The translations under genes and the position numbers were made by a program. 64,000 bases of DNA. Origin: Sphaerisporangium corydalis (lineage in GTDB: Bacteria > Actinomycetota > Actinomycetes > Streptosporangiales > Streptosporangiaceae). Each line of letters starts with the position of its first letter. Position 1 is the stretch's first letter. Below the pieces are notes generated by a model. It was given only the letters and a program-made list of their open reading frames with translations, did no database searches and was not told where the DNA came from. The stretch is from contig NZ_JANZYP010000017.1 of the NCBI RefSeq assembly GCF_025506355.1, forward strand, positions 1-64,000, written 5' to 3'. Below, piece after piece: positions 10,628 through 45,764 of this stretch.

Positions 10628-10639
10628 CGCGGCCTCGGC

Positions 10640-17317: not shown

Positions 17318-17323
17318 GCCGGC

Positions 17324-18958: not shown

Positions 18959-19025
18959 CGGGGGATCTCCTCGTGTTCACGGGTGAGGAATCGTGCAACC
19001 CGGCCACATCGGAGCGACCGTATTC

Positions 19026-30039: not shown

Positions 30040-31674
30040 TCAGCGTGGCGCCAGGATGCGCAGTTGCAGCATCGCCGCGAACCGCTGCTCGGGGTCGTCC
30101 AGGTCGATCTCGCCCACCTCGGTGACACGCCTGAGCCGGTAGCGCAGGGTGTTGGCGTGGATGAACAGGGCGCCGGCCGCCTTGGCCACGTCGCCGTGGG
30201 CGTCCAGCCAGGCCTCCAGGGACTCGACCAGGCCGGCGCCGTTCCGCTCGTCGTACTCCATCAGGCGGGCGATCGCGCCGCCCGGCCGCTCGTCGCGCGC
30301 GGCCGCGAGGTCACGCAGTTCCAGGATCAGGGCGAGCGTCTGCACGTCATCGAGCCGGGCCACCCGGAGGGTGGTGTGCCCCTCCCGCATCACCCGGAGC
30401 ACCCGGTCGGCCTGGGCCCTGCCGCGGACGATCCCGCTGATCTCCGATTCCGCGGGGCCCACCGCCACGATCGCGCGAAGGCCGCCGCCGACCCGGTCCA
30501 CGAAGTCGGACGCCAGCCGGACGGCGCGCTGTTCGGGGGCGCCCGTCGAGACGACCACGGGCAGCAGGCCGTAGACCGTGCCGCCGACGGTCCCCATCGC
30601 CGAGGACGGCACCGTCACCGACAGGTGGACCGACAGCGCGTCCGCGAGCCGTTCGAGGTCGGCGGCCCTGCTCTGGTCGGCGCGGGCGTGATCGTCGTCG
30701 GCCAGCAGGCCCGCGCTGACGATGACGAGGCGGCGACCGGCCAGGCCGAGCCGCACGAGCGCGTCCCGTGCCCCGGCGCCCCCTTCGAGTACCGTCCCGA
30801 TCAGGTCGGTGCGCAGCCGTCGCTGGACGTCGGCGCCGGCGCGGATCCGCAGCAGGTGCAGCGCGACGAGCTTGGAGACGTCGAGCAGCGCCTGCGTGCG
30901 CTCGGCGTCGATGTCGCCGTCCATGGCCGCCCAGATCGAGCCGAGGATCTCGTCGCCGGCGCGGACCGCGATGGCGACGCGCTGCACCGTCATCCCCTCG
31001 TACCCCAGGTCCTCCGGCGTGACGACGACCGGCCGCTGGGAGCGGTACAGGTCGCGGAAGACGCCCAGTTCCGTCAGCCGCGTGGCGTACCGCTCGGGCA
31101 CCTGACGGCCGATGACCGTCTCCACGCGGGAGGGGTCGGCCTCGTCCTGGCGGCCGGAGAAGGCGAGCACCCGGGAGTTGCGGTCCTCGATGGTGATGGG
31201 GGCGTTCAGCAGCGCGGCCACGGCGTTGGCCACCGCGAACAGGTCACCGGAGGGGAGCCCGCCGAGCGACTCGTGGCCGGTGACACCGATGTCCCCCTCG
31301 GCGAGCATCGCCCGCATGAGGGCCGTGAGCTGCGCCCACGTGGCACCCCGGCGCAGGCCGATCACCGCCACGCCGCTCTCCTGGACCGCCTCCCGCACCT
31401 CGGCCGTCAGGGTCACCGGGGCCCGGACGACGAGCCCCACCGCGCCGTGGCCGCCGAGTGAGCGGAGCAGGCCCGGCAGCGTGCCGCCGGCCGGGTCGAC
31501 GCCGACCCCGAGCACGAGCGAGCGCGGCGGCGGCACGGGTTCGTCCAGCGGGTCGAAGATGACGAGCCCGCTGATCTCTCCGGGCCGGCCGACGTCGCCG
31601 GCGACCAGTTCGAGGAGCGTCGTCCCGAGGTCGTCCAGCACTCGCCCGAGGCTGGCACGCGGACGCTGGCTCAC
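30040..31674 (-). CDS. PucR-family transcriptional regulator
   Basis: A 544-residue regulator that begins at GTG 31674 (SQRPRASLGRVLDDLG). The N-terminal PucR-type sensing domain (about 1-150) carries GLVIFDPLDEPVPPPRSLVLG and ends near LRRGATWAQLTALMRAML. A GAF/GGDEF-like middle follows, and then the C-terminal HTH_30 helix-turn-helix (WLDAHGDVAKAAGALFIHAN, TLRYRLRRV). PucR proteins usually control nitrogen or amino-acid catabolic genes. Its gene is last in a run of same-strand genes for peptide uptake and N-acyl amino-acid metabolism, so it is the likely regulator of that island. Confidence 0.9.
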   Translation of the reverse strand: MSQRPRASLGRVLDDLGTTLLELVAGDVGRPGEISGLVIFDPLDEPVPPPRSLVLGVGVDPAGGTLPGLLRSLGGHGAVGLVVRAPVTLTAEVREAVQESGVAVIGLRRGATWAQLTALMRAMLAEGDIGVTGHESLGGLPSGDLFAVANAVAALLNAPITIEDRNSRVLAFSGRQDEADPSRVETVIGRQVPERYATRLTELGVFRDLYRSQRPVVVTPEDLGYEGMTVQRVAIAVRAGDEILGSIWAAMDGDIDAERTQALLDVSKLVALHLLRIRAGADVQRRLRTDLIGTVLEGGAGARDALVRLGLAGRRLVIVSAGLLADDDHARADQSRAADLERLADALSVHLSVTVPSSAMGTVGGTVYGLLPVVVSTGAPEQRAVRLASDFVDRVGGGLRAIVAVGPAESEISGIVRGRAQADRVLRVMREGHTTLRVARLDDVQTLALILELRDLAAARDERPGGAIARLMEYDERNGAGLVESLEAWLDAHGDVAKAAGALFIHANTLRYRLRRVTEVGEIDLDDPEQRFAAMLQLRILAPR

Positions 31675-31793
31675 GCCCGGCAGTATAGGCGGCCGGCCCC
31701 ACGCCCGATCCGGCCTGGTCACACGGAGGTCCTCACCTCGCCCGCCGGTGATCGGAAGGGCGTCAGCACCGCGCGGACGCGGCCCGCCGACGG

Positions 31794-32918
31794 TCAGAAG
31801 GCGATCCACTCGGTCGACGTCGTCACCGCGTCGAGCAGGTCAGGGATGGGCGTGACCCCGAGCCCAGGGCCGGTCGGCACGGCGATGTGACCGTCCTCGA
31901 TGACGATCGGCTCCGTGATGTCGGTTTTGTAGAAGCGGTCGGAGGCGGAGACGTCCCCCGGCAGCGTGAATCCCGGCAGGGCGGCCAGGGCCACGTTCGC
32001 CGCCCGGCCGATGCCCGTCTCCAGCATCCCCCCGCACCAGACCGCGAGCCCGTGGGCCGCGGCCAGGTCGTGGATCTTCCGGGCCTCCAGGTAGCCGCCG
32101 ACCCGGCCGGGCTTGATGTTGATGATCTGGCAGGCGCCGAGCGTGATCGCCGCGGCGGCGGTCTGCGCGGAGACGATGGACTCGTCCAGGCAGATCGGCG
32201 TCGCCATCCGCCGTGCCAGCTCAGCGTGCCCGAGGACGTCCTCCTCCTCCAGCGGCTGCTCGATCAGGAGCAGGTCGAACTCGTCGAGCCTCGCCAGGTG
32301 GCGCGCGTCGCGCAGCGTGTAGGCCGTGTTGGCGTCGACCTGGAGCGGCACGTCCGCGCCGAACCGCTCGCGTACGGCGGCCACCGGGACCAGGTCCCAC
32401 CCCGGTTCGATCTTCAGCTTGATCCGCATGTACCCCGCGTCCAGGTAGCCCTCGACGACCTCCAGCAGGTGCGGGACCGTGTCGTGGATGCCCACGGAGA
32501 CGCCGCTGGGGACCCGGTCGGCGACCGCGCCGAGCTCGCGGCCGAACGAGCGGCCGAGCGCGCGGAGCTCGGCGTCCAGGACCGCCATCTCCACGGCCGC
32601 CTTGGCCATGCGGTGCCCCTTGAACGGGTGGAGCAGGCCGGCGACGGCCGCCGCGCCCGAGCGCGCGACCGCGTCACGTCCCTCGGCCGAGGCCAGCTTC
32701 GGGAGCAGGAAGCGCCGCAGCACGTCCGCCTGGGAGTCGGCGTACTCGCTCGAGTAGAGCGGGTCGGTCATCGCGACGCACTCGCCCCAGCCTTCGGCGT
32801 CGTCCGTCACGGCCTTGAGGATGAGGATGTCGCGCCCGGTCTGCGTGCCGAACGAGGTCCGGAACGGTGACACGAGCGGCATCGAGATACGGCGAAGTTC
32901 GACTCCGCGGAGCTTCAT
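31794..32918 (-). CDS. N-succinylamino acid racemase / o-succinylbenzoate synthase family
   Basis: Enolase-superfamily enzyme of 374 residues that interconverts N-succinyl D- and L-amino acids through an enediolate. The catalytic set is complete: K167-x-K169 (RIKLKI) and K269 (NIKPGR) as the acid/base pair, and Mg2+ ligands D195 (VDANT), E220 (IEQPL) and D245 (CLDES). The spacing matches, as I recall, the Amycolatopsis NSAR/OSBS. The ATG follows GGAG. No menaquinone genes are nearby, and the next two genes encode a COG3375-type GNAT and an M20 deacylase, so the racemase role in D- to L-amino acid conversion is far more likely than OSBS activity. Confidence 0.9.
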   Translation of the reverse strand: MKLRGVELRRISMPLVSPFRTSFGTQTGRDILILKAVTDDAEGWGECVAMTDPLYSSEYADSQADVLRRFLLPKLASAEGRDAVARSGAAAVAGLLHPFKGHRMAKAAVEMAVLDAELRALGRSFGRELGAVADRVPSGVSVGIHDTVPHLLEVVEGYLDAGYMRIKLKIEPGWDLVPVAAVRERFGADVPLQVDANTAYTLRDARHLARLDEFDLLLIEQPLEEEDVLGHAELARRMATPICLDESIVSAQTAAAAITLGACQIINIKPGRVGGYLEARKIHDLAAAHGLAVWCGGMLETGIGRAANVALAALPGFTLPGDVSASDRFYKTDITEPIVIEDGHIAVPTGPGLGVTPIPDLLDAVTTSTEWIAF

Positions 32919-32943
32919 GACTTTTCTCCGGATCTGTTCGATG

Positions 32944-33735
32944 TCACGGTCGGGCGAGCTCGACGAGGTAGCCGAAGCCGGCGTCGAAGTCGACGACGCG
33001 GCCGCCGGAGGCCATCAGCGGCTCCAGCTCGTCGCGGAGCCGGAGGCGCCAGGCCGCCGCGGCGGCGGCGTCGCCGGCCCGCAGGGCCTCGATGTCGGCC
33101 GGCGCCGCGACCTTCCGGTACGGCGCGCCGCCGATCGGGCGCTCGAACGGCGTCCCGGAGCAGGCGGCGAGGGCGCGCGGCGACAGCAGGTCCCAGCGCA
33201 CCAGAAGCCGGTCGGTGTCGTCGCCACCGTTGATCGCGTCGTGCATCACGCCGTAGAAGTTGGTGAGGTACTCCACGGGGAGCGCCCCCAGCTTGACGAT
33301 GTTGAAGTAGGCGTTGCGGCTGACCAGCGGATCGAAGGTCCACTCGATCGTGACGATGCCGCGGGCGAGCGCCCACGCCCGCTGGTGCAGCTTGATCGCC
33401 CGCCCGACGCCGCGGCCGGCCAGCCCCGGCGCCACCCCGGCGATGTGGCTGTGCAGGGTGCGTGCCGCCGGCTCCGCGTGGAAGCCGATGCACACGCCGA
33501 CGAGCCGGTCCCCGGCGTAGGCGCCGGTGACGTAGTTGCCCGCCTTCGTCAGCGCGCGGAGGAACTCGACGGTGATGAGCGGGTTCTCCGGCCGGCCCCA
33601 GATGCCCACGAGCAGGTCGATCACGGCGCGGGCCTCGTGCAGGTCCCGTACCTCCCGGATCACCACCGCCGCCTTCGCGGCCCACCTCGCCGCGTCCTCC
33701 GCCGCCAGGTCGAGGGAAGAAGCCTCGATGCTCAC
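32944..33735 (-). CDS. GNAT acyltransferase of the COG3375 type (D-amino acid N-succinyltransferase candidate)
   Basis: A 263-residue GNAT protein. The acetyl-/succinyl-CoA loop lies in VAPGLAGRGVGRAIKLHQR, and TIEWTFDPLVSRNAYFNIVKLGA is the hallmark of the COG3375 branch. In Geobacillus a protein of this branch was reported to succinylate D-amino acids from succinyl-CoA, with an NSAR and an L-desuccinylase encoded alongside. The GTG start overlaps the stop of the M20 gene (GTGA), and the racemase gene starts 25 bases downstream. The gene set around it is the strongest argument for the specific function; the acyl donor itself is not visible in sequence. Confidence 0.82.
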   Translation of the reverse strand: MSIEASSLDLAAEDAARWAAKAAVVIREVRDLHEARAVIDLLVGIWGRPENPLITVEFLRALTKAGNYVTGAYAGDRLVGVCIGFHAEPAARTLHSHIAGVAPGLAGRGVGRAIKLHQRAWALARGIVTIEWTFDPLVSRNAYFNIVKLGALPVEYLTNFYGVMHDAINGGDDTDRLLVRWDLLSPRALAACSGTPFERPIGGAPYRKVAAPADIEALRAGDAAAAAAWRLRLRDELEPLMASGGRVVDFDAGFGYLVELARP

Positions 33736-34856
33736 GCCCCGTCCTCCCGAAGTTCGGCGACCAGCTCGCGCACCAGCACGGTGCGGTCCAGCAGTCTGGC
33801 GACGACGACGTGCTCGTCGTCGGCGTGGGCGCCGCCGCCCACCGCTCCCAGGCCGTCGAGCGTCGGGGTCCCGACGCCCGCGGTGAAGTTGCCGTCCGAG
33901 GCGCCGCCCACGCTCGCGCCGGACACCGGCGGCAGACCGAGCCGCGCCGCGAGGGCGATGGCCCGTTCGAGCAGCGAGCGGCTCGCCGACTCCTCCAGCG
34001 GCGGCCGGTTGACACCGCCCCTGATCTCGATCACCGCGCCGGGGACGGTCGGCGTCAGATCGCGCAGCTCGCGGTCGACCCGCAGCTGCTCGTCGTGGCT
34101 TCGCGCGCGCACGTCCACGGCGAACGACCCGGAGGCGGGCACCGTGTTCGTCGTGGTGCCCGCCGCGATCACGGTCGGCGTGACGGACGTGCCGGCCGCC
34201 GGATCACTCAGGGCGCTCGCCGCGATCGCGAGGTGGGCCAGTTCGAGCGTGGTGTTGACGCCCTTCTCCGGCTCCAGCCCGGCGTGCGCCGCGCGGCCGG
34301 TGACCCCGACCTCGTACAGCGACACGCCTTTGCGCGCCACCTTGAGCGCGCCGCCGGCGGCCGATCCCTCCAGCACGAGCACCGCCTTGGAGCGGCGGGC
34401 CTCCTGCTCGATCAGCGCGCGCGAGCTGGGCGACCCGATCTCCTCGTCCCCGGTCACCAGCAGGGTGACGCCGGCGCGCACGGGCAGGCCGGCGACGGCG
34501 TGGATCGCCATGACCAGGCCGGTGAGCATGTCGAAGCAGCCCGGGCCGCGCAGCACGCCGCCGGCGATCCCGTACGGGTGGGTCGCCAGGGTGCCGAGCG
34601 GCCAGACGGTGTCGTGGTGGGCCAGGAGCAGCACCTGGCGGTCGCCGTCGCCGAAGCGCCACCGCAGGTGCGCGCACCCGTCGATGGTGATCCGCTCCGG
34701 TTCGGCGCCGAGCCGCGCGGCGCCGACGCGGGCGACCAGATCGGCCGACCTCGCGACCGCGGCCTGGTCGGAGGAGGGCGACTCGCACTCGACGAGTTCC
34801 CTGAGGTCGGCGAGGAACGTGTCGAGGCCGAGGGAGCCATGTGAGATGCCGGGCAC
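33732..34856 (-). CDS. M20-family metallopeptidase (N-acyl-L-amino acid deacylase candidate)
   Basis: A dizinc hydrolase of 374 residues. The ligand motifs occur in order: LLLAHHDTVWP (His, then the supporting Asp), GPGCFDMLTG (bridging Asp), VTGDEEIGS (general base and Glu ligand) and GGGAHADDEHV (last His). The lid domain (GRAAHAGLEPEKGVNTTLELAHL) follows the ArgE/CPG2 pattern. The GTG at 34856 lies two bases after the stop of the serine hydrolase gene; no ATG is available in this frame. In the proposed pathway it would release free L-amino acid from the N-succinyl-L form, making the inversion irreversible. Confidence 0.88.
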   Translation of the reverse strand: MPGISHGSLGLDTFLADLRELVECESPSSDQAAVARSADLVARVGAARLGAEPERITIDGCAHLRWRFGDGDRQVLLLAHHDTVWPLGTLATHPYGIAGGVLRGPGCFDMLTGLVMAIHAVAGLPVRAGVTLLVTGDEEIGSPSSRALIEQEARRSKAVLVLEGSAAGGALKVARKGVSLYEVGVTGRAAHAGLEPEKGVNTTLELAHLAIAASALSDPAAGTSVTPTVIAAGTTTNTVPASGSFAVDVRARSHDEQLRVDRELRDLTPTVPGAVIEIRGGVNRPPLEESASRSLLERAIALAARLGLPPVSGASVGGASDGNFTAGVGTPTLDGLGAVGGGAHADDEHVVVARLLDRTVLVRELVAELREDGA

Positions 34857-34858
34857 GG

Positions 34859-36250
34859 TCAGCCGAGCTTCTTCGGGGTCGCGCGGGCGCCGTAGTGGAC
34901 GTACTCCTCGCCCGAGGGCAGCGAGTAGAACGTCACCGGCGCCCACGACTCCATGCCTTCGGGACGGACCGCGTACACGCCCTGCGAGACCGGGATCATC
35001 TCGTAGGTCTCGACGGGGGTGACCTCGAGTTCGGCCAGCGGGCCCATCACCGTGACACGCAGGCTCGGCTTGCCGTCGTCCTCGAACACCTCCATGCGCA
35101 CCGACTCGCGCTCGTAGGTGCCGGCGTACGGCGCCACGTCGGTCGCGGACGGCTCGGCGGGCGGCTCGAACGGCTCGGGCAGCCGCACGCCGGTGAGCTC
35201 GCCGAAGATCTCGTCGTAGAGGTCGATGTAGAGGTCGTGGGTGTGGCCGCCGTTGGTGTTGAGCGAGACCGCGACGCCGGCCTCCGGCAGGATGCGCAGG
35301 AACGCCGCCTGCCCGATGGTGTTGCCGTCGTGCCCGTAGGCCCGGTGGCCGTGCCAGTCGCAGCGGAACCAGCCAAGACCCCACGAGTCGCCGAGCAGGT
35401 GCTTCTCGGGGCAGTCGGTCTGGTAGGCCGACATCGCCTCGGCGCTCTCCGGCGTCAGCACCCGCGTGCCGTCGGCGGCGGCCCCGCCGGACATGTGCAT
35501 GCGGGCGAAGGCGAGCACGTCGGTGACGGTCGCCGTGATCAGGCCGGCCGGGCCGACCGCGCGGGGCAGGCCCCACACGGGCGCGGGCACCGTGCCGTCG
35601 GCGCCCTTGACGTGGCCCATCGCGTGCGCGAAGACCATGGCCTCCTCGGGCAGGGTCGAGGTGTGGGTCAGGCCGAGCGGGGCGAAGAGCATCTCCCTGA
35701 TCGCCGCGTCCCAGGTCTGGCCGGTGACGACCTCGATGATCCGGCCGAGCACGGAGTATCCGGCGTTGCAGTAGGACCAGGTGGCGCCGATCGGGTGGTT
35801 CTGCGCGGAGTCGGCCACCAGCGTGACGTACTTCTCCAGCGCGTCGTCACCGCGGCCGGTGTCGGTGAACAGGTCGCCGTCGATGCCGCTGGTGTGGGTG
35901 AGCAGGTGCCAGACGCTCACCGCCGCGGTGGCCTCGGGGTCGCGCAGCCGGAACTCCGGCAGGACCTCCACGACCGGGGTGCGGAGGGTGAACCGGCCCT
36001 CGTCGACGAGCCGCATGACGACGGTCGCGGTCCACACCTTGGAGATCGAGCCGATCTGCCAGACCGAGTCCGTACCGGCGGGCTGACCGGTGCCGGTGTG
36101 CAGGACGCCCGTCGCGGCGGTGACGAGCTCGTCGTCCGCGCCGTCGGCGCCGAGCCGGAGGATGCCCAGCTGGGCGCCCGGGATGCCGTGCTTCGCCGCG
36201 AGTTCGTCGAGGCGGTTCTGCCAGTGGACCTGGTCGATGGTGGTGGTCAC
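34859..36250 (-). CDS. Penicillin-recognising serine hydrolase (beta-lactamase family), copy 1
   Basis: A 463-residue class C beta-lactamase/D-peptidase fold protein. The catalytic S68-x-x-K71 (GSISKVW), Y160-C-N162 and H-D-G (YGHDGNTIG) are present, followed by an extra C-terminal beta-rich domain (about 370-463). There is no signal peptide, so it acts in the cytosol on what the adjacent transporter brings in. Likely activities are D-aminopeptidase, D-esterase or DD-peptidase on D-residue peptides. The GTG start overlaps the DppF stop (GTGA). It is a paralogue of the gene at 41634-43013, sharing the TDTGRGDDAxEKYVT stretch. Confidence 0.88.
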   Translation of the reverse strand: MTTTIDQVHWQNRLDELAAKHGIPGAQLGILRLGADGADDELVTAATGVLHTGTGQPAGTDSVWQIGSISKVWTATVVMRLVDEGRFTLRTPVVEVLPEFRLRDPEATAAVSVWHLLTHTSGIDGDLFTDTGRGDDALEKYVTLVADSAQNHPIGATWSYCNAGYSVLGRIIEVVTGQTWDAAIREMLFAPLGLTHTSTLPEEAMVFAHAMGHVKGADGTVPAPVWGLPRAVGPAGLITATVTDVLAFARMHMSGGAAADGTRVLTPESAEAMSAYQTDCPEKHLLGDSWGLGWFRCDWHGHRAYGHDGNTIGQAAFLRILPEAGVAVSLNTNGGHTHDLYIDLYDEIFGELTGVRLPEPFEPPAEPSATDVAPYAGTYERESVRMEVFEDDGKPSLRVTVMGPLAELEVTPVETYEMIPVSQGVYAVRPEGMESWAPVTFYSLPSGEEYVHYGARATPKKLG

Positions 36251-37035
36251 GTCTGCTCCTTCAGGGCCGAGGTGGGGGCGGGCCGCCCGTTTCCCGATGA
36301 GGTGCGGCGCACGGCTCCGGGCAGGGCGGCGAGAAGATGGCGGGTGTAGTCGTGCTGTGGCGCGCCGAGCACTCGCGCGGTCGGGCCGTACTCGACGATC
36401 TCTCCGGCGTACAGCACCGCCACGTGGTCGGCGACGTAGCGGACGACCGCCAGGTTGTGGGAGATGAACAACATGGACAGGCCCAGTTCGCGGCGCATGT
36501 CCCGGACGAGGTTGAGCACGGCGCCCTGCACCGAGACGTCCAGCGCCGAGGTGATCTCGTCGGCGAGGATCACCTCGGGCCGGGCGGCGAGCGCCCGGGC
36601 CAGCGCGACCCGCTGACGCTGGCCGCCGGAGAGCCGCACGGGAAGGTCGTCGGCGCGTGAGGCGTCCAGGTGGACCAGCGCGAGCAGGCGCGCGATCTCC
36701 GCACGCCGTGCCTCCTTGCCGAGGCGTTCCCGCATGGCCTCCGCGATGCTCTCGCCCACGGTCATCCGCGGGTCGAGCGAGGAGTACGGGTCCTGGAAGA
36801 CCATCTGCACCGGGCGCGCGCGGCCCCGGTTCGGCACCGGCCGCCCGTCCAGCAGGATCTCGCCGGTCGTCACGGGCGCCAGGCCGACGGCGGCCCGCGC
36901 CAGCGTCGACTTCCCCGAGCCCGACTCGCCGACCAGGCCCACGACCTCGCCGCCGGCGACGTCGAGGCTGACGTCCTTCAGCACGGTGTGCGAGCCGTAG
37001 CGCACCGAGACGCCGCGGAAGCTGAGCAGGCTCAT
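36247..37035 (-). CDS. ABC transporter ATPase, DppF/OppF type
   Basis: A 262-residue ATPase. Walker A GESGSGKSTL, signature LSGGQRQRV, Walker B VILADEITSALD and the switch histidine in LFISHNLAVV are intact. It lacks the Cys-containing tail of the partner ATPase and ends in a short basic tail. The ATG overlaps the stop of the permease-ATPase fusion (ATGA). It forms the second nucleotide-binding half of the importer. Confidence 0.92.
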   Translation of the reverse strand: MSLLSFRGVSVRYGSHTVLKDVSLDVAGGEVVGLVGESGSGKSTLARAAVGLAPVTTGEILLDGRPVPNRGRARPVQMVFQDPYSSLDPRMTVGESIAEAMRERLGKEARRAEIARLLALVHLDASRADDLPVRLSGGQRQRVALARALAARPEVILADEITSALDVSVQGAVLNLVRDMRRELGLSMLFISHNLAVVRYVADHVAVLYAGEIVEYGPTARVLGAPQHDYTRHLLAALPGAVRRTSSGNGRPAPTSALKEQT

Positions 37036-38936
37036 ACGGTGACCTCCGCGCTGTCGGCGGGAAGCGGCCACCCGGCCTTGTGGCAGGCCACGCGGTTGCC
37101 CGCCGCGTCGGCCTGGAGCGGGGGTTCGACGGCGCGGCAGTGGTCGTCGGCGAGCGGGCAGCGTGCCGCGAAGGCACAGCCGGCCGGGACGTCGGAGGGG
37201 TCGACCGGCGTGCCGGGGATGACGGCGAGCGGCCGCGTCAGGTCGGTCTCCATGTCCGGCACGGCCGCGACCAGCGCCCGCGTGTACGGGTGCCGGGCGA
37301 GGGTCCCGAGGTCGCGGGCCGGCAGTTCCTCGACGATGAGGCCGGCGTACATCACCAGCACCCGGTCGCACACCTCCGTCACCACCGAGACGTCGTGACT
37401 GATGAGCAGGAGGGCGGCACCGGTGTCGCCGCGCACCTCGCCGAGGAGCGCGAGGACCTGCCGCTGGACCGTGACGTCCAGGGCGGTGGTCGGCTCGTCG
37501 GCGATGATGAGCCGCGGCGTCCCCATCAGGCCCATGCCGATCATCGCCCGCTGGCGCATCCCCCCGGAGAACTCGAAGGGGTACTGCCGCGCGCGCCGCT
37601 CGGGCTCGCGGAGCTTGACCGCGTGGAGGCGGTCGACCGCGCGGGCGAAGGCCGCCCTGCGGCCCAGCCCCTGGTGGAAGCGGCCCACCTCGGCCAGTTG
37701 CGGCCCGACCCGGTGGGCCGGGTTGAAGGACGTCATGGGGTCCTGGAAGACGACGACCAGCGACGTGCCGAGGCGTTTGCGCAACGACGCGGGATCGTCG
37801 GCGGCCATGAGGTCCTCTCCGGCGAAGACCAGGTGGTTGGCGTCGACGCGGACCGGCTCCTCGATGAGCCGGGCCACGGCCAGCGCCGTCACCGACTTGC
37901 CCGAGCCGGACTCGCCGACCACGCCGACGGCCTCGCCGTCCCGGATGGCGAACGTGACGCCCCGCACCGCGTGGATCGGGCGCCGGGCGCCGGGGATCGT
38001 CACCCGCAGGCCGTCCACCGACAGGACCGTGCCGGGCTCGGGGTCCGGCGCCGCGACCGCGGGCCCGGCGGACTCGCCGGCGGCGCCGCGGACCGCGCGG
38101 ACGCGCGCCACGCCGGGGATCACGTCGATGCCGAAGGCGGCCGCGAAGGCCTCGCCGGTGAGGTTGAACGCCAGGCCCGCGAGGACGACGGCGATGCCCG
38201 GCCCGAGCGCGGCGAGGGGGTGGACGTAGATGCCGTTGAGCCCGTCCTGCATGAGCTTGCCCCAGTCGTAGGACGGGGCCTGGACGCCCAGCCCGAGGAA
38301 CGAGAGCCCGGAGAACGTGAGCAGCACCCCGCCCGCGGCCATGGTCGCGTTCACGATCAGCGGTTCGGCGATGTTCGGCAGGGCGTGGCGGACCAGGATG
38401 CGGAATTTGCTCACGCCCGCGATACGGGCGGCGGCGATGTAGTCCCGCTCCGAGACGCCGGACAGGAGCGTGTGGCACAGCCGGGCGAACGCGGGCGCCC
38501 CGGCGAGGCCCACCGCCAGCGCCGCCCCCCGCGCGCCGACGCCGAAGACGACGGCGAAGAACAGGACGAGCAGCAGGCCGGGGAAGGCGACCAGCACGTT
38601 GACCGCCGAGGTGATGAAGCGGGCCACCCGCCGTCCGGTCAGCATCGGCGCGGCGCCGAGGACGACGCCCAGCACCATGCCGATCGCCGTCGCCGCCAGG
38701 GCCAGCGTGATCGAGAGCCGGGTGGCCACCAGCACCCGGAAGAACAGGTCCCTGCCGAGGTTGTCGGTGCCGATCCAGTGCTCGCCTGAGGGGCCGGCGA
38801 GCAGGTCACCGGTGTCGATGACCGTGGCACGGCCGTCCCACAGGACCGGTCCGAACACCGCGACCAGCAAGACGACGGTGAGGAGGCCGAAACCGGCGAA
38901 GCCGACGGGCCTGAGCAGGACGCGTGCCGCGCGCAT
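37032..38936 (-). CDS. Fused permease-ATPase of a peptide ABC importer (DppC-DppD)
   Basis: A 634-residue fusion. Residues 1 to about 280 form a DppC permease with six helices: GTDNLGRDLFFRVL, EAA-type loop ARIAGVSKFRILVRHALPN, and LTFSGLSFLGLGVQAPSYDWG. A 30-residue Ala/Pro/Gly linker joins it to a DppD ATPase (about 310-625) with GESGSGKSVTALAV, FSGGMRQRAMI, LIIADEPTTALD and the Cys-rich tail CAFAARCPLADDHC. Fusion of membrane and ATPase parts fixes their ratio and orientation. Transport polarity and ligand class follow from the family 5 binding protein gene upstream. Confidence 0.92.
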   Translation of the reverse strand: MRAARVLLRPVGFAGFGLLTVVLLVAVFGPVLWDGRATVIDTGDLLAGPSGEHWIGTDNLGRDLFFRVLVATRLSITLALAATAIGMVLGVVLGAAPMLTGRRVARFITSAVNVLVAFPGLLLVLFFAVVFGVGARGAALAVGLAGAPAFARLCHTLLSGVSERDYIAAARIAGVSKFRILVRHALPNIAEPLIVNATMAAGGVLLTFSGLSFLGLGVQAPSYDWGKLMQDGLNGIYVHPLAALGPGIAVVLAGLAFNLTGEAFAAAFGIDVIPGVARVRAVRGAAGESAGPAVAAPDPEPGTVLSVDGLRVTIPGARRPIHAVRGVTFAIRDGEAVGVVGESGSGKSVTALAVARLIEEPVRVDANHLVFAGEDLMAADDPASLRKRLGTSLVVVFQDPMTSFNPAHRVGPQLAEVGRFHQGLGRRAAFARAVDRLHAVKLREPERRARQYPFEFSGGMRQRAMIGMGLMGTPRLIIADEPTTALDVTVQRQVLALLGEVRGDTGAALLLISHDVSVVTEVCDRVLVMYAGLIVEELPARDLGTLARHPYTRALVAAVPDMETDLTRPLAVIPGTPVDPSDVPAGCAFAARCPLADDHCRAVEPPLQADAAGNRVACHKAGWPLPADSAEVTV

Positions 38937-38937
38937 C

Positions 38938-39960
38938 TCAGCTTTCTCCGATCGTCGAACGCGGGTCGAGCAGCGCGAGCACCACGTCGACGAGGGTGTT
39001 GATCAGCAGGACGCCGACGCCGTAGATCAGGACGGTCCCCTGCACCAGCGGGTAGTCCTTCGACACGATCGAGGAGACGATCGTGGAGCCGAGCCCCGGC
39101 CAGGCGAAGACGTTCTCCACCAGCACGGTCCCGGCCACGAGCGAGCTCAGCAGCAGGCCGCCGAGCGTCAGGCTCGCCGTCACGGCGTTCGGCAGGGCGT
39201 GCACGAGCTGGACCCGCCACGGCGTGAGCCGCTTGGCCCGCGCGGTGCGGATGTAGTCGGCCTCCATCACGGCGAGCATCTCCACGCGGACGATGCGCGA
39301 CAGCACCGCGCAGGGGCCGATCGCCAGCGCGAGCACCGGGAGCACGTAGGAGTCCGGGCCGGCGCGGCCCGCCACCGGGAACAGGTGGGTCTGCACCGCC
39401 AGCAGGTAGACGAGCCCGACGCCGACCAGGAAGTCGGGGATCGCCCCGAGCACGACGTTGGTCCCGGTGAACGCCAGCTCCGTACGCCGCCCCTTACCGC
39501 GGCGGGTGATCACCGCCATCACGACGCCCACGGGCACGGCGACGAGCACCGAGAGCAGGAACGCCGCCACCGCGAGCTGGGCCGTCGCGGGCAGACGCTG
39601 GGCGATCGTCTCGCCCACGGGCAGCCGGGTCGAGATCGAGACGCCCAGCTCCCCGCGGAGCAGGTTTCCGAGGAAACCGGCGTACTGCCGCCAGAGCGGG
39701 TCGAGCAGGCCGAGGTCCCGTGTGCGGGCCAGCACCAGCTCCGCGGGAGCGGTCGGTCCGAGCGCGGCCCGCACCGGATCGCCCGGGACCAGGTGGATCA
39801 TCAGGAACGAGGCGGTCACCAGGACCCAGAGCGAGACCAGCAGGCGTCCCGCCCGCCGCAGCGCGAAGCGGAGCCATCTGTGCGACCACAGATCGCCCGC
39901 CCGGCCGCGCAGGCCCCGCGCGGCCGAGGGCGGGACGGCCGCCGGCGTCCAGCCCCCCAT
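38938..39960 (-). CDS. ABC transporter permease, DppB type
   Basis: A 340-residue permease with six helices. A basic cytosolic N-terminus of about 35 residues precedes the OppB-type start RFALRRAGRLLVSLWVLVTA and IHLVPGDPVR. The EAA loop reads RTARAKRLTPWRVQLVHALPN, followed by VENVFAWPGLGSTIV. The ATG (39960) lies two bases after the SBP stop; its own stop is one base before the next gene's ATG. Longer in-frame starts would run back into the SBP coding region. Confidence 0.92.
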   Translation of the reverse strand: MGGWTPAAVPPSAARGLRGRAGDLWSHRWLRFALRRAGRLLVSLWVLVTASFLMIHLVPGDPVRAALGPTAPAELVLARTRDLGLLDPLWRQYAGFLGNLLRGELGVSISTRLPVGETIAQRLPATAQLAVAAFLLSVLVAVPVGVVMAVITRRGKGRRTELAFTGTNVVLGAIPDFLVGVGLVYLLAVQTHLFPVAGRAGPDSYVLPVLALAIGPCAVLSRIVRVEMLAVMEADYIRTARAKRLTPWRVQLVHALPNAVTASLTLGGLLLSSLVAGTVLVENVFAWPGLGSTIVSSIVSKDYPLVQGTVLIYGVGVLLINTLVDVVLALLDPRSTIGES

Positions 39961-39962
39961 CG

Positions 39963-41564
39963 TCACCCGAGCATCCGGATGCTGGTCGGGACGATGCTGC
40001 CGACGATGGAGAGCTTCGCGCCCTTGAGGAAGGTCGGGATCACGTTGTTGGCGAACGGCACCACGTCCGCGGCCTTGTAGAGCGCCTGCTCGGCCGCGAA
40101 CCAGTCCGCGCACCCGTCGGCGCCCTTGGCGCTCATCGCCTTGGTGGCCAGGGTGAGGTAGTCGGCGTTCTCGATGGCGGCGAAGTTCGTGCCCTTCGGG
40201 GCCGTGGTGCCGGAGAGGAACGGAATGAGCTGGTCGGGGGTACTGACGTTGAGCGGCACCCAGGCGATGTCCCAGTCACCGGTGCTGAAGAGCGCGGCGG
40301 AGACCTGGGTCGGGTTCAGCTGGGTGACCTTGGCGTCGATCCCCACCGCCTTCCAGGCCGCCAGGGCGAGTTCCGCGGCGGCGCTTCCGCCGCTTCCGAG
40401 CGTGTTGCCGTAGATGAGGGAGACCGAGAGCCTCTTTCCGCCCTTGGCGCGGACGCCGTCCGAGCCCTTCGCCCAACCGGCGGCGTCCAGGGCGGCCCCC
40501 GCGGCGGCGGCGTCGAACGACGGCACGTGGCCGGTCACGGCGTCGCCGACGCAGCCCGTCGGCTCCAGGACGGCCAGCTGGGTCGCGGCGGCGCCCTTGC
40601 CGGAGGTCAGCGCCACCTGAAGCTGCTTGAGATCGAGCGCCTGGGTCAGCGCCATGCGGACCGCCTTGTCGGAGGTGAGGTGGCCGGACGCGTGGTTGTA
40701 CCACTGCTCACCGACCACCGTCTGCGTGCCCACGGAGGCCAGCCCCGCCGCGGCGAGGCGGCCGGCGTCGGGGCCGGCGATCGTGACGGCGTTGACGGTG
40801 CCGGCGAGCAGTTCGTTGCCGGCGGTGGTCTCGTTCGCGACGATCTTGACGGTCACCTTGGCCGGCATTCCCTGCTCGGCGGTGGTGGCGCCGCCCGGCC
40901 CCCACGTGTAGCCCTTGCGGAGCTCGTAGGTGTAGTGGTCCGACGGGACCGCCTCGGTGAGGACGTAGGGGCCGGTGCCGCTGGTGCCGGCCTTGAGGGT
41001 GGCGCGGTCCTTCATGCCGGCGTCGCACACCATCGGCAGGTTCGCGAACGAGTTCAGCGCGAACGGGGCCGGTGCGGCCAGTTTGACGGTGACCGTCGAG
41101 CCTGAGGCCGAGGCGGTCGCGCCGGCGGGGATGAAGACCCCGAGGAACGGGCTCTTGTTGGCCGGGGCCTCCACATAGGTGATGTTGTCCACCACGGTCT
41201 TGGCCGTGAACGCCGTGCCGTCGGAGCAGGTGACGCCGTCCTTGAGCGTGAAGGTGAGCGTGGTGTCGCCGACGGTCCAGGACGCGGCCAGCTGCGGGAG
41301 GATCTTGCCGTCATCGGCGACGGCCACCAGCTTGTCGTAGGCGTACTGCGTCATGCCGAACAGGGTGCTGTCGACCGAACCCTGCGGGTCCAGGGCGCCC
41401 GGGTCCGAGGAGCCGTCCATGGTGAAGGTCTTGCCGTTGACGTAGGCGGCGGCACCCGGCGAGGCGGAGTCGGACGTGCCGCCGCCGCCACAGGCGGCGA
41501 GACCGGCCGTACCGGTCAGTGCCAGGGCGAGCGCCGCGAGGGTCCTCGTGCGTATGGGGGACAT
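39963..41564 (-). CDS. Substrate-binding lipoprotein, peptide class (SBP family 5)
   Basis: A 533-residue lipoprotein receptor with lipobox LAAC and a Gly/Ser-rich tether. SBP_bac_5 marks are DPGALDPQGSVDST, LAASWTVGDTTLTFTLKDGVTCSDGTAFTA, SGTGPYVL and KAVRMALTQALDLKQL. The ATG follows AAAAGGAA. It should deliver peptides or related amino-acid derivatives to the DppB/DppCD/DppF complex. The hydrolases on both sides indicate peptides containing D-residues or N-acylated residues (inference). Confidence 0.92.
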   Translation of the reverse strand: MSPIRTRTLAALALALTGTAGLAACGGGGTSDSASPGAAAYVNGKTFTMDGSSDPGALDPQGSVDSTLFGMTQYAYDKLVAVADDGKILPQLAASWTVGDTTLTFTLKDGVTCSDGTAFTAKTVVDNITYVEAPANKSPFLGVFIPAGATASASGSTVTVKLAAPAPFALNSFANLPMVCDAGMKDRATLKAGTSGTGPYVLTEAVPSDHYTYELRKGYTWGPGGATTAEQGMPAKVTVKIVANETTAGNELLAGTVNAVTIAGPDAGRLAAAGLASVGTQTVVGEQWYNHASGHLTSDKAVRMALTQALDLKQLQVALTSGKGAAATQLAVLEPTGCVGDAVTGHVPSFDAAAAGAALDAAGWAKGSDGVRAKGGKRLSVSLIYGNTLGSGGSAAAELALAAWKAVGIDAKVTQLNPTQVSAALFSTGDWDIAWVPLNVSTPDQLIPFLSGTTAPKGTNFAAIENADYLTLATKAMSAKGADGCADWFAAEQALYKAADVVPFANNVIPTFLKGAKLSIVGSIVPTSIRMLG

Positions 41565-41633
41565 GCGGTTCCTTTTCTGGGGGGTGAGCGGGATCCGCCC
41601 GGGCTCTCGGACACGGGCGAACCGCCCGGGCTC

Positions 41634-43013
41634 TCAGGCGCGGGCGACCACACGGCCGTAGTGGATGTACTTCGCCCGGTCCGTCGCGTCGCGTCCGATG
41701 AAGGCGAAGATGAGGTGGATGCCGTGCGTCGGTTCGAGAGAGATCAGCGAGTCGCCCTCGAAGTGCACGAGCCGGCTGCGCTCGGGCCTCCCGCCGATCT
41801 CGGCGATGACGTCCTTGGGCACCCGGTCGAGCCAGATCGCGCCCTCGGCGTCCTGGCTGACGGTGATGTCGTAGATCGTGTCCGCGTAGTGGCCCAGGTA
41901 GGGCGCCGGGTCGATCGTCTGCGGCTCGGCGGGCGGCACCGGACGGCCCGGCAGGGTGACGCCGGTGAGCTCCTTGAGCAGGTACGCCGGCACGTCGTTG
42001 AAGATGCCGAAGAAGTCGCCGCCGTTGGTCAGCAGCGCGATCGCGACGCCGTGCTCGGGGACGAACCTGAGGAAGGCCACCTGGCCGATGGTCCCGCCGT
42101 CGTGGCCGATCACGGTGTGGCCGTCGTGCTCGTCCATCTCCCAGCCCAGGCCCCACGAGCCGCCCATGCCGCTGAGCCGGGGCACCTTCACCTGCGGGCG
42201 CCGCATCGCGGCCACGGTCTCCGGCCTGAGCACGACCGAGCCGTCGGGCGCCGTGCCGCCCGCCAGGTGCATGGCGACGAAGCCGAGCAGGTCGCGGGGG
42301 GTCATGGCGAGCATCGACCCGGCGGGGCCGTTGGACTTCGCGAGCGCCCAGACCGGCGCGGGCGCCAGGGAACCGTCCTCGCCGGGCACGTGGCCGACGG
42401 CGGCCCGGTGCAGGATCGCCTCGTAGGGGCTCGGGGAGACGTGGGTGAGGCCGAGCGGGGCGGCCAGGCGCTCGACCAGCACCTCGTCGAAGGGCTTGCC
42501 GCGCAGCACCTCGACCAGGCGGCCGAGCACCACGAAGCCGGTGTTGTTGTAGGAGAAGACCTCGCCCGGCTCGAAGAGCTGCGGGATGTCATGGAGCGAG
42601 GTGACGTACTTCTCGATGGCGTCGTCGCCTCGGCCGGTGTCGGTGAAGATGTCGCCCTCGAAGCCGGCGACGTGGCACAGCAGCTGGCGGGTGGTGATCG
42701 TGTCGGCGGCGGCCTCGTCACCGATGGTGAACTCCGGCAGGTAGGCGCGCAGCGGCTTGTCGAGGTCCACCAGGCCGTCGTCCACGAGCTGCATGACCAG
42801 GGCGCTGGTCCAGAGCTTGGTGATCGACCCGATCTGGAAGACCGAGTCGGTCGTCGCCTCGACACCGGTGGCCTGGCTGAGGACACCGGCGGCGGCGGTG
42901 AGCACCCGGCCTCCGGCGAGGACGGCGACCGAGGCGCCGGGCACGCCGCGCTCGGCCACGATCCGGGCGAAGTGCTCGTCGAGCCAGCTCTGGACACTTT
43001 CCGGCGACATCAT
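41634..43013 (-). CDS. Penicillin-recognising serine hydrolase (beta-lactamase family), copy 2
   Basis: A 459-residue paralogue of the protein at 34859-36250, with the same cytosolic layout. Catalytic S63-x-x-K66 (GSITKLW), Y155-N-N157 and HDGGT are intact, and an extra C-terminal domain covers about 365-459. No ribosome site precedes the ATG pair at 43013/43010; a -10-like TAGCCT ends six bases upstream, so the mRNA may be leaderless and start here. Repeated TCCGATCGGACAA sites lie 38-81 bases upstream. It heads the run of genes for the importer, which starts 69 bases after its stop. Confidence 0.88.
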   Translation of the reverse strand: MMSPESVQSWLDEHFARIVAERGVPGASVAVLAGGRVLTAAAGVLSQATGVEATTDSVFQIGSITKLWTSALVMQLVDDGLVDLDKPLRAYLPEFTIGDEAAADTITTRQLLCHVAGFEGDIFTDTGRGDDAIEKYVTSLHDIPQLFEPGEVFSYNNTGFVVLGRLVEVLRGKPFDEVLVERLAAPLGLTHVSPSPYEAILHRAAVGHVPGEDGSLAPAPVWALAKSNGPAGSMLAMTPRDLLGFVAMHLAGGTAPDGSVVLRPETVAAMRRPQVKVPRLSGMGGSWGLGWEMDEHDGHTVIGHDGGTIGQVAFLRFVPEHGVAIALLTNGGDFFGIFNDVPAYLLKELTGVTLPGRPVPPAEPQTIDPAPYLGHYADTIYDITVSQDAEGAIWLDRVPKDVIAEIGGRPERSRLVHFEGDSLISLEPTHGIHLIFAFIGRDATDRAKYIHYGRVVARA

Positions 43014-43049
43014 GTGCTGAGGCTAAGGGGCGGGCCCGCTGCCGTACTC

Positions 43050-43094
43050 GTCCGATCGGACAACCTTGCCCGTCGCGGTCATCCGATCGGACAA
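43050..43094. promoter_or_regulatory. Paired operator-like sites upstream of the D-peptide operon
   Basis: TCCGATCGGACAA occurs twice in direct orientation, at 43051-43063 and 43082-43094. The core TCCGATCGGA is a perfect palindrome, extended to GTCCGATCGGAC in the first copy. The spacing is 31 bp, about three helical turns. The pair is just upstream of the serine hydrolase gene that heads the importer genes, so it is a candidate PucR-regulator binding site. Confidence 0.6.
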
Positions 43095-43134
43095 GCCCGC
43101 CCCGCGCCCCTTCGGGTGAGCCGCCCGCACCGCG

Positions 43135-44097
43135 TCATTTCCAGACCTGACCGGCCACCCGCCGGAAGTTGCCGCCCAGGATGCCGCGCACGGCCTCGTC
43201 CGGGTAGCCGCGCCCGACCAGCTCCCGCTCGATCAGCAGCGTGACCTCCGGCTCGACGAACCGGATCACGCCCCAGCGGGTGTACTCCTCGGGGAACAGG
43301 TCGGGGTTGGCCTCGAGGTCCACCTGCAGGTCGTCGGCGTCGAAGGAGAAGTCGCTGCCGATGCCGACGTGCTCGGGCCCGACCAGTTCGACGGCGTAGT
43401 CGATGTGGGCGACGAAGGCGTCGAGGGTCGCGGTGTTCGGGCCGAGGAAGATCCCGACGCCGGGGATGCCGATGACGCCGCCGGTCGCGGCGCACTCGCG
43501 CGCCTGCTCGTCGGTGACGTTGCGGACGTGGTCCCACAGCCCGCGCATCGCGGAATGGGAGTAGATCATCGGCTGCTCGGAGACCGCCGAGAGGTCGAGC
43601 CCGGTACGCGTGCCGCAGTGCGAGCCGTCGACCAGCATGCCGACCTCGTTCATCCGCCTGACCAGGTCGCGGCCGTACGCCGTCAGGCCGGTGTCGGTCG
43701 TGTCCAGGCAGCCGCCGCCGGCGGCGTTGCCGTTGTTGTAACTCGGCAGCAGCGACTTCACGCCCAGGTCGTAGAAGGTGCCCACCATGTCGAGGTCACC
43801 GGCGAGCGGGTTGGAGTCCTCCAGGTCGAACGCCACCACGACACGGTCGCCGGGGACCGCGGCGTCGATCTCCCCGATGGTCGTCGCGATCTCCAGGGCG
43901 GGGTGGGCCTCGATCGAGCGGGTGAAATGGTCGATATAGGAGAGCGCGTCCTCGCGTGAGTGCGGCGCGTAGCCGACGTTGACGCTCACGTACGCGCCGC
44001 CCGGCCGGCGGTACCGCAGGAGGTCGCTGACGTCGGCGTCGAGGGTGAGGGGCAGGCAGGTGTGCTGCTCCCAGAAGGCGCGGCTCGCTGTGGTCAT
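43135..44097 (-). CDS. M19 (renal dipeptidase) family protein with altered N-terminal metal site
   Basis: A 320-residue barrel hydrolase. Conserved M19 positions are visible: E93 (VVAFDLEDSNP), H160 (LVDGSHCG), H181 (MIYSHSAMR) and R192-N-V, plus the C-terminal GGNFRRV. At the N-terminus, where the family has D-G-H-x-D, it reads LTLDADVSDLL, so the first zinc-ligand histidine is missing or replaced. M19 enzymes cleave L-D dipeptides and D-peptide bonds, which fits the adjacent D-peptide genes. The ATG has AGGA upstream. It is 34 bases after the hydrolase-methyltransferase fusion gene, so it may be co-transcribed with that. Confidence 0.8.
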   Translation of the reverse strand: MTTASRAFWEQHTCLPLTLDADVSDLLRYRRPGGAYVSVNVGYAPHSREDALSYIDHFTRSIEAHPALEIATTIGEIDAAVPGDRVVVAFDLEDSNPLAGDLDMVGTFYDLGVKSLLPSYNNGNAAGGGCLDTTDTGLTAYGRDLVRRMNEVGMLVDGSHCGTRTGLDLSAVSEQPMIYSHSAMRGLWDHVRNVTDEQARECAATGGVIGIPGVGIFLGPNTATLDAFVAHIDYAVELVGPEHVGIGSDFSFDADDLQVDLEANPDLFPEEYTRWGVIRFVEPEVTLLIERELVGRGYPDEAVRGILGGNFRRVAGQVWK

Positions 44098-44131: not shown

Positions 44132-45640
44132 CTACCCGAGGGCGGGGTCGTCCCGCCGGAACTCCGCCCGCCAGAGCCGCGGATCCTGGAGTTCCTCCAG
44201 CCGGACCAGGGAGAGGCCGCCGGTGGCGAAGGACTCCATTTCGGCGCGGGTGAGCGGCCACGGCGGCCCGTCCTCGTCGCCGTCATCGGCGTCCCTGGCG
44301 GCCATGACGGTGATGAGCGTGCCGCCCGGCCCGACCAGGCGGCGGACGGCGGCGACGGCCTCGCGGCGCAGGCTCACCGGCAGGGCCTGGACGGTGAAGA
44401 TCTCCACCACCAGGTCGAAGGCGGCGATCCATTCGGCGGGCGGGGCGAGCAGGTCGGCGGTGCGGTAGCGCACCGGCGAGGCGGGGTGGCGGGCCTTTGC
44501 GGTCCGGATCGCGGTCCCGGAGATGTCGAAGGCGTCGGTGTCGAAGCCGAGGCCGGCGACGTACTCGGAGTCCGCGCCCAGCCCGCAGCCGATCACCAGC
44601 GCGCGTCGTCCCGCGCCGGTGAGCGCCTTGGCCGAGGCCCACTCCCGGAGCGGTTCGCGCGGGCCCTCGCGGTCCCACGGCATCGGCACCTCCCCGGCGT
44701 CCGCGGCGGCGTACAGCCGCTCGAACCATCCCGTCGGGTCGTCGCCGGCCAGGGCCTTGGTGGCGAGCACGTCGGCCTGCCGGCCCCAGCCGCCGGAGGT
44801 GTGCCACAGGATCGCCGGGACGACCACGTCCCACGCCGCGCGGGGCAGTTCGTGGCCGACCGCCGCGAGGGGCAGCAGCCGCGCGCCCGGGATCTCCCTG
44901 GCCAGGGCGCGGCCGTGGCCGAGCGGGAACAAGGGGTCCTCGGCGCCGTGCAGGACCAGCGTCGGCACCGAGATCTCGCCCAGCCGCGCGCGCCACCGGC
45001 CGGGGCCGCCGATCATGTGGTGGTTCTTCATCGCCGACTCGACGCCGGTCGTGCGGCCGACCGCCCGGGTGGCGACGGCGCGCACCTCGGCCTCCTCGAA
45101 CGGGCGGCCGGGCGCCGCGCAGGACCGGCAGCCGGCCACGATGTGGTCGACGACGGCGTCGCGGTCCGACCAGTCCGGTTCCGGCGGCGCGGCGGCGAAG
45201 GCGGCCCGGAGCGCGTCCGTCATGCCCGGCAGGTCGGGGTCGCCCGGCCCGCCGCTCGTGCTGATCAGGGTCAGCGACGCCACCCGCTCGGCGTGGTCCA
45301 GCCCGATGACCTGGGCCATCCCGCCGCCCATCGAGATGCCCACGATGTGCGCCCGCGACACGCCGAGCCCGTCCAGCACGCCGAGCGCGTCCGCGATCAG
45401 GTCGTGCCCGGTGTACGCCGGGGCGCCCGCCGGGTACCGGGCCGACCGCCCGGTGTCCCGGTGGTCGTACCGGATGACATAGCGGGATCCGGCGGCCAGC
45501 CGCTCGCAGAACTCCGGCTCCCACCAGTCCATCGAGGCCGTCGCGCCCGCGATCAGCAGCACCGCCGGGTCACCCGGCTCACCGAACGCCTCCACGCACA
45601 GGTCCACCCCGTTGACCCGGAGCATCTTCTCGTTGGTCAC
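44132..45640 (-). CDS. Alpha/beta hydrolase-SAM methyltransferase fusion
   Basis: A 502-residue two-domain protein. Residues 1 to about 270 form an alpha/beta hydrolase with nucleophile elbow VGISMGGGMA, oxyanion region LLIAGATASMDWW, Asp in LHGAEDPLFPLGH and His in VGHELP. About 300-500 form a class I methyltransferase (ALVIGCGLGADSEYVA, DAFDISGTAI, FDLVVEIFTVQALP, LVGPGGTLITVMAA), similar to thiopurine/thiocyanate-type small-molecule methyltransferases. The GTG at 45640 begins TNEKMLRVNGVDLC. Both active sites look intact, which suggests sequential steps on one substrate or two unlinked roles. Confidence 0.85.
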   Translation of the reverse strand: MTNEKMLRVNGVDLCVEAFGEPGDPAVLLIAGATASMDWWEPEFCERLAAGSRYVIRYDHRDTGRSARYPAGAPAYTGHDLIADALGVLDGLGVSRAHIVGISMGGGMAQVIGLDHAERVASLTLISTSGGPGDPDLPGMTDALRAAFAAAPPEPDWSDRDAVVDHIVAGCRSCAAPGRPFEEAEVRAVATRAVGRTTGVESAMKNHHMIGGPGRWRARLGEISVPTLVLHGAEDPLFPLGHGRALAREIPGARLLPLAAVGHELPRAAWDVVVPAILWHTSGGWGRQADVLATKALAGDDPTGWFERLYAAADAGEVPMPWDREGPREPLREWASAKALTGAGRRALVIGCGLGADSEYVAGLGFDTDAFDISGTAIRTAKARHPASPVRYRTADLLAPPAEWIAAFDLVVEIFTVQALPVSLRREAVAAVRRLVGPGGTLITVMAARDADDGDEDGPPWPLTRAEMESFATGGLSLVRLEELQDPRLWRAEFRRDDPALG

Positions 45641-45764
45641 ACCGGCGACCCTAGTTCGCCGCACCGACAGATCCACGGCCGGATCGCCCGGACGTCCACG
45701 GGGTGAAGGACCTCCCGGTCACCTGGGACGCGTGACCGCCCTCGGCGCCGGGGTGGTCCGGCGT

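Follow-up and report, generated by a model that had tools for sequence, protein, structure and literature searches.

An actinomycete operon joining a predicted peptide importer to a putative D-to-L amino-acid inversion pathway

Gene content of the locus

We analysed a stretch of 64,000 nucleotides from Sphaerisporangium corydalis (RefSeq assembly GCF_025506355.1, contig NZ_JANZYP010000017.1, called C72 below, positions 1 to 64,000), hereafter 'the window'; the genome assembly comprises 9.48 Mb in 162 contigs and is 99.37% complete. At 30040-44097 the window holds eleven closely spaced minus-strand genes with plausible starts (ORF, open reading frame, below). They combine a predicted peptide importer, two serine hydrolases and a dipeptidase homologue with the three enzymes of a putative N-succinyl route from D- to L-amino acids, and with a regulator. 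From the upstream end, they are:

43135 to 44097, minus strand: M19 (membrane dipeptidase family) homologue, 320 amino acids; PF01244, 238 bits
41634 to 43013, minus strand: SH1, S12 serine hydrolase; PF00144, 218 bits; S63xxK66, Y155xN157, H304xG306
39963 to 41564, minus strand: family 5 solute-binding protein (SBP); PF00496, 156.4 bits; lipobox-like LAAC, seen by eye
38938 to 39960, minus strand: DppB-type permease; PF00528, 119.2 bits
37032 to 38936, minus strand: DppC-DppD fusion, permease and ATPase with an oligo_HPY tail; PF00528, PF00005 and PF08352 above cut-off
36247 to 37035, minus strand: DppF-type ATPase; PF00005, 113.2 bits; 4-bp overlap with each neighbour
34859 to 36250, minus strand: SH2, second S12 serine hydrolase; PF00144, 202.5 bits; S68xxK71, Y160xN162, H307xG309
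33732 to 34856, minus strand: M20 hydrolase, putative L-specific N-succinyl-amino-acid desuccinylase; PF01546 and PF07687; GTG start
32944 to 33735, minus strand: GNAT, putative succinyl-CoA:D-amino-acid N-succinyltransferase; PF13480 (Acetyltransf_6), a weak match of 24.2 bits against a cut-off of 22
31794 to 32918, minus strand: N-succinylamino acid racemase (NSAR), of the enolase superfamily group that also includes o-succinylbenzoate synthase (OSBS); 1SJA, 586 bits
30040 to 31722, minus strand: PucR-type regulator; PF13556, 73.9 bits; alternatively, a longer ORF from 31809

Nine of the ten junctions measure at most 71 bp, and seven, those running from the SBP gene to the NSAR gene, are overlaps or gaps of at most 25 bp (25 bp between GNAT and NSAR). 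The M20 gene is counted here from a GTG at 34856, so that 2 bp separate it from SH2. Matches above the Pfam gathering cut-offs were obtained for SBP_bac_5, BPD_transp_1 (two proteins), ABC_tran, Beta-lactamase (the two S12 proteins), Peptidase_M20 with M20_dimer, MR_MLE_N/C, Acetyltransf_6 (weakly), HTH_30 of PucR and Peptidase_M19. The catalytic residues checked across the operon enzymes are all intact except in M19. A preliminary description of this DNA had listed eleven same-strand genes with a peptide ABC importer, an NSAR carrying five catalytic residues and a PucR regulator, and all of these were confirmed; its M19 dipeptidase homologue belongs to that family, with an altered metal site, as described below.

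The NSAR aligns end to end (586 bits, residues 1-373) with its best solved relative, the Amycolatopsis N-acylamino acid racemase 1SJA. The equivalents of the five catalytic residues Lys163, Asp189, Glu214, Asp239 and Lys263, and of Arg266, are identical in 83 of 83 relatives (in all residue counts identical proteins were collapsed, near-duplicates remain, and the relatives come from fetched loci). The protein passes the cut-off of TIGR01928 (menC_lowGC_arch; 296 bits against 200.65), a model that presumably spans NSAR and OSBS activities alike, and stays below that of PRK02901 (MenC, the OSBS of menaquinone synthesis; 71.5 bits against 288). No PDB relative of the GNAT was found by sequence in a search up to an E value of 1. 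Its AlphaFold2 model (mean predicted local distance difference test 90.3, from a 32-row alignment) had solved GNAT N-acetyltransferases as best Foldseek matches, and we treat the protein as a putative D-amino-acid N-succinyltransferase using succinyl-CoA; locus L020, whose translation contains a stop, was excluded from the GNAT alignment (A2). The M20 protein keeps metal ligands and general base in 60 of 60 sequences. Its closest solved enzyme is carboxypeptidase G2, and its best NCBIfam models, below cut-off, are glutamate carboxypeptidase-like; a preference for N-succinyl-L-amino acids is putative.

The SxxK, YxN and HxG motifs, assumed here to be the S12 catalytic motifs, are kept in 29 of 29 SH1 and 41 of 41 SH2 sequences. 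Among the PDB neighbours of SH1 are the alkaline D-peptidase 4Y7P and the D-alanyl-D-alanine carboxypeptidase 1CEF, and the solved neighbours of both proteins after 7SPN include a D-peptidase, a DD-carboxypeptidase and a penicillin-binding-protein-type cyclase; D-specificity is suggested by these family neighbours. Because neither protein shows a hydrophobic N-terminus by eye, both are probably cytoplasmic. In the M19 protein, alignment places His12-x-Cys14 where canonical members have His-x-Asp, so that the histidine is kept and the aspartate is replaced by cysteine; the other metal ligands (E93, H160, H181, D249) are conserved. His-x-Cys occurs in 13 of 13 cluster-type orthologues, and His-x-Asp in 22 of 22 proteins of the other M19 type.

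The importer has the full part set of a Dpp/Opp system, namely SBP_bac_5, two BPD permeases and two ATPases with oligo_HPY, this last domain being below cut-off in DppF (22.5 bits against 27.1). The matches of the DppB-type permease to the NCBIfam Opp/Nik/Dpp permease models are all below cut-offs. From this predicted type, we infer that the importer takes up peptides. The regulator matches the AdeR model weakly (135.4 bits, cut-off 700).

Conservation, losses and other layouts

Relatives were sought with a short-peptide pattern scan for the GNAT in one genome of each of 84,980 species, a method that detects close relatives only. It gave 31 named loci, and for 23 of them the fetched DNA includes an NSAR. 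Of 200 genomes of the family, 110 yielded a match to the GNAT at an E value of 1e-20. Eighteen loci, including the window, are close orthologues (L009-L014, L145-L154 and L232 being the others). SH2 and PucR are found in all 18, the complete importer in 17 (not L154), NSAR in 17 (not L010, whose genome has two NSARs elsewhere), SH1 in 15 (not L147, L148 and L150) and M19 in 14 (not L010, L013, L154 and L232). In L154 (9661-12460), SH1 is directly followed by SH2, the four importer genes between them being gone.

The M20 gene is the variable member. It is present in seven of the 18 loci (the window, L011, L012, L147, L148, L150 and L232), and all 11 genomes without an in-cluster M20 carry a homologue elsewhere, at 58-63% identity. 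More distant loci of similar order possess it (L156, L157, L160, L161 and L164; it is missing from L162), and since they do, its absence from close orthologues is probably a loss (no tree was made). In the searched genomes of named loci, NSAR and M20 were each found in 14 of 15, the exception both times being the L029 genome. Copies of NSAR and M20 located elsewhere indicate that the pathway is shared between loci in many genomes. The 'complete' pathway of the preliminary description is thus a true statement about this window, and not about the cluster type.

To judge linkage, 40 stretches anchored on a GNAT, each at most 20 kb long and drawn from 39 genomes, were compared with 40 control stretches at arbitrarily chosen positions in 23 of those genomes. 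Anchored loci were picked down the GNAT match list, skipping loci already taken and some second matches in the same genome; L166, which duplicates L017, and L172, which overlaps L039, were kept in the counts. NSAR was found in 35 anchored loci versus no control, M20 in 25 versus none, S12 in 23 versus none, M19 in 20 versus none, PucR in 21 versus none and DppB in 22 versus two. At least one of DppB, S12 or M19 lies nearby in 35 of 40 anchored loci, versus 2 of 40 controls. The excess stays after removal of ten close orthologues (S12, 13 of 30 versus 0 of 40; DppB, 13 of 30 versus 2 of 40). Given this difference, the linkage goes beyond chance, and together with the conserved gene order in relatives it supports well the tie between peptide uptake, cleavage and the inversion trio that had been proposed. 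A lack of shared gene order among relatives, named in the preliminary description as a result that would refute it, was thus not what was seen.

A second layout consists of a canonical M19 (His-x-Asp) followed by M20, GNAT and NSAR. It occurs in eight of the 40 anchored loci (L155, L158, L163, L171, L177, L178, L180 and L181), in L118 and L129, and in the source genome itself, on contig C73; partial versions exist as well (for example, L112, L114, L123, L126 and L128). The copy of the source genome (C73:54500-74000, L110) occupies positions 6986-11245 of that stretch. SBP-like and permease-like genes, recognized by eye, are found about 5 kb downstream (16316-19500), past genes on the opposite strand.

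Plasmids offer further contexts, and in all seven plasmid records the NSAR gene carries the label menC. In Sulfitobacter mediterraneus, the GNAT-NSAR pair lies with an amino-acid ABC importer and a MurR/RpiR regulator, whereas in Sulfitobacter sp. W027 permeases and an ATPase precede menC, with no GNAT among the entries listed. An SBP gene accompanies GNAT and menC in Deinococcus radiodurans and in D. ficus, in the latter together with MurR/RpiR and M20. In Priestia megaterium the pair has a MurR/RpiR regulator and an amidohydrolase as neighbours, and in an Arthrobacter plasmid it is accompanied by M20, a dipeptidase and serine hydrolases. Finally, the plasmid of Streptomyces sp. NBC_00826 has a long island that reads PucR, MFS, hydrolases, M20, GNAT, menC, regulator, serine hydrolases and importer; within it (L188, 8405-10933), we noted a class A beta-lactamase match below cut-off and an amidohydrolase above the PRK09061 cut-off. 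The neighbouring transporters (amino-acid importer, SBP gene, or peptide importer with hydrolases) would fit the form in which the substrate is expected to arrive.

The MenD of S. corydalis is 88-89% identical to that of three genomes of the same genus and 77-83% identical to that of eight others. Its GNAT is 78% identical to that of G197, of the same genus, 87% to those of two genomes of other genera, and 77-82% to those of ten further genomes of other genera. The cluster genes are more similar to those of certain other genera (Nonomuraea, Microbispora, Acrocarpospora) than to those of one same-genus genome, the reverse of what is seen for MenD. Such identities, with MenD as the only marker and no tree, are no more than suggestive of horizontal exchange of the cluster.

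One neighbouring gene was considered as a twelfth member. Lying 34 bp upstream of the operon (44132-45676, minus strand), it codes for a fusion of an alpha/beta hydrolase and a methyltransferase domain. It was rejected, having a match in none of the 40 GNAT-anchored loci; a single match (38%) was seen in L013, on the opposite strand.

Proposed function and competing explanations

Building on the gene content, catalytic residues, linkage and recurrence in other layouts reported above, with each reaction assigned from the enzyme family, we consider it likely that the operon serves the catabolism of D-residue peptides. The SBP and the DppB/DppCD/DppF importer would bring such peptides in, and the S12 hydrolases and the M19-like enzyme would cut them in the cytoplasm, freeing D-amino acids. 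The GNAT would then N-succinylate the D-amino acid with succinyl-CoA, NSAR would interconvert the N-succinyl-D and N-succinyl-L forms, and M20 would strip succinate off the L-form, which would make the conversion to the L-amino acid irreversible. The run would be controlled by PucR. The peptides might be non-ribosomal ones with hydrophobic D-residues, which suit the substrate preference of NSAR; cell-wall peptides are also possible. A more extended proposal is that a horizontally exchanged actinomycete operon family salvages hydrophobic D-amino acids of non-ribosomal peptides, with the Cys-ligand M19 as a peptidase of a new kind, and with a shared GNAT-NSAR-M20 module that has been reconnected to importers of amino acids or of peptides, depending on the form in which D-amino acids are available. 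We hold this extension tentatively and think it less likely than not.

Several observations weigh against the catabolic reading. On the uptake side, the closest solved structures of the SBP are 6LU2 and NikA-like proteins, family 5 also covers nickel and other non-peptide binders, and L154 has no importer at all. As to the hydrolases, 7SPN (IS11), the closest solved S12 relative, is not named a D-peptidase, the S12 family contains esterases and beta-lactamases as well, and the M19 protein is without a canonical metal ligand. Linkage has its exceptions: 8 of the 31 named loci have no NSAR in the fetched DNA, and among the 40 anchored loci, 5 are devoid of NSAR and 5 of peptide importer, S12 and M19. 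The Fisher tests on these counts take related loci as independent, and their p-values are too small. One M20 copy counted as present elsewhere, in Sphaerisporangium sp. TRM90804 (L014), has an in-frame TGA. Lastly, L010, L017 and the first L039 cluster combine GNAT and PucR with importer and/or S12 genes, without NSAR and M20 in place, so that the GNAT may serve a separate purpose.

The enolase-superfamily enzyme could also be mainly the MenC of menaquinone synthesis, its position in the cluster being incidental. The source genome encodes MenD and isochorismate synthase (TIGR00543), both above cut-off, and a MenE-like protein below cut-off (L111, C1:71500-91000); a PRK02901 MenC above cut-off was not found in the assembly, and only its two NSARs pass TIGR01928. 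The plasmid entries that give a gene name, among those listed, call NSAR menC. In Microbispora hainanensis (L114, G002:C210), where again no PRK02901 MenC exceeds the cut-off, the distance between MenD and an M19-M20-NSAR cluster is about 4 kb, which hints that NSAR serves as OSBS in that species. However, a dedicated MenC is present in 7 of 15 genomes of named loci. In three of these seven, those of L009, L011 and L012, MenD was located and the MenC stands beside it, and their in-cluster NSARs are nonetheless retained at 87-91% identity, which argues that the cluster enzyme is not kept merely as a MenC. The presence of NSAR near GNAT in most anchored loci (35 of 40) and the invariance of Arg266 (83 of 83) point the same way, and we find it quite improbable that menaquinone synthesis is the main function. 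An NSAR acting only as OSBS, the objection foreseen in the preliminary description, is accordingly unlikely for the family, whereas a dual role is possible in the source genome: as it has MenD and no dedicated MenC above cut-off, one of the two NSARs may also act as OSBS, an activity of which the Amycolatopsis enzyme is also capable. The source genome further contains a TIGR01928-like enolase-superfamily ORF (C44, L139, 178-1542, minus strand; 102 bits, below cut-off). By eye, it has other residues in place of the catalytic lysines and of one metal ligand, and it is possibly a non-catalytic paralogue.

Another possibility is that the operon imports and breaks down some other amide or ester ligand, such as N-acyl amino acids, hydrazides, beta-lactam side chains or opine-like compounds, GNAT, NSAR and M20 handling only one released D-amino acid. 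The structural neighbours of the SBP, the catalytic breadth of the S12 family, and the beta-lactamase-like and PRK09061 proteins of the NBC_00826 island would all be compatible with this. Yet the combination of M19 and S12 enzymes with a Dpp/Opp-type importer indicates peptides, and M19 recurs in two separate layouts, for which reason such a ligand seems unlikely to us. A further possibility is a role in resistance or detoxification, and not in nutrition, in which the purpose is to N-acylate D-amino acids or to cleave antibiotics with D-residues. The loci that keep GNAT without NSAR and M20 in place could be read in this sense, but all three genomes (L010, L017 and L039) hold NSAR and M20 homologues elsewhere, one NSAR of L039 being some 8.5 kb further on. 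Moreover, the importer would carry the toxic compound inward, and the S12 proteins score far below the cut-offs of the NCBIfam class C beta-lactamase models (no resistance-gene library was searched). We give this purpose very little credence; for the antibiotic resistance role raised earlier, nothing was found in favour, and no resistance-gene search was made. Taken as a whole, the preliminary description is supported in part: the link between uptake, cleavage and inversion is well supported, resistance is not, and completeness does not extend to the cluster type.

Known systems and significance

The inversion chemistry is known, as is every enzyme family involved. The GNAT/NSAR/desuccinylase route is said to have been shown in Geobacillus kaustophilus by Sakai et al. 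in 2006. It employs the same three enzyme families, with the same expected irreversible D-to-L conversion; in S. corydalis, in contrast, they are encoded in a single operon that also specifies a peptide importer, a pair of S12 hydrolases, a homologue of M19 and PucR. The Amycolatopsis racemase resembles the operon NSAR over its whole length and in its active-site residues. In Bacillus subtilis, the dpp-ykf genes for cell-wall peptides likewise place a peptide importer near peptidases and an enolase-superfamily epimerase. That L-Ala-D/L-Glu epimerase acts on the intact dipeptide, whereas the racemase of the operon would need N-succinylation before it and desuccinylation after it.

Another parallel is the DgcN-DgcA route for D-glutamate, named in a passage of PMC10845958; an N-acetyltransferase for D-glutamate and a racemase for N-acetyl-D-glutamate appear in a passage of PMC11747546. 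As far as these passages go, the D-amino acid is N-acylated there too, and a racemase then acts on the N-acyl form, but the substrate is D-glutamate and the group is acetyl; on the NCBIfam DgcA model, the operon NSAR reaches 88.8 bits against a cut-off of 400. For one published operon, it has been proposed by its authors that D-residue peptides are taken up and hydrolysed inside the cell, and the passages covered of that work do not mention the GNAT-NSAR-M20 trio there.

No account of the present operon was found in the open-access literature, as covered by titles and abstract beginnings among the matches listed and by passages of PMC8142540, PMC3546935, PMC7431475, PMC11432326, PMC11747546 and PMC10845958, most subscription journals lying outside this scope; a search of open-access literature for an L-Xaa-D-Xaa dipeptidase gave no match. 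The literature so searched likewise gave no description of an operon coupling inversion to peptide uptake, of an M20 used in common by several loci, of two types of M19 or of the exchange of transporters.

The D-amino acids of cell walls and peptide antibiotics form a nitrogen pool of slow turnover. NSAR has been known mostly as a model of enzyme promiscuity and as a biocatalyst. If the proposed function is correct, a conserved operon uniting uptake with cleavage and stereochemical inversion would account for the role of NSAR in actinomycetes. It also provides a gene set ready for testing, and candidate enzymes that may cleave peptides with D-residues.

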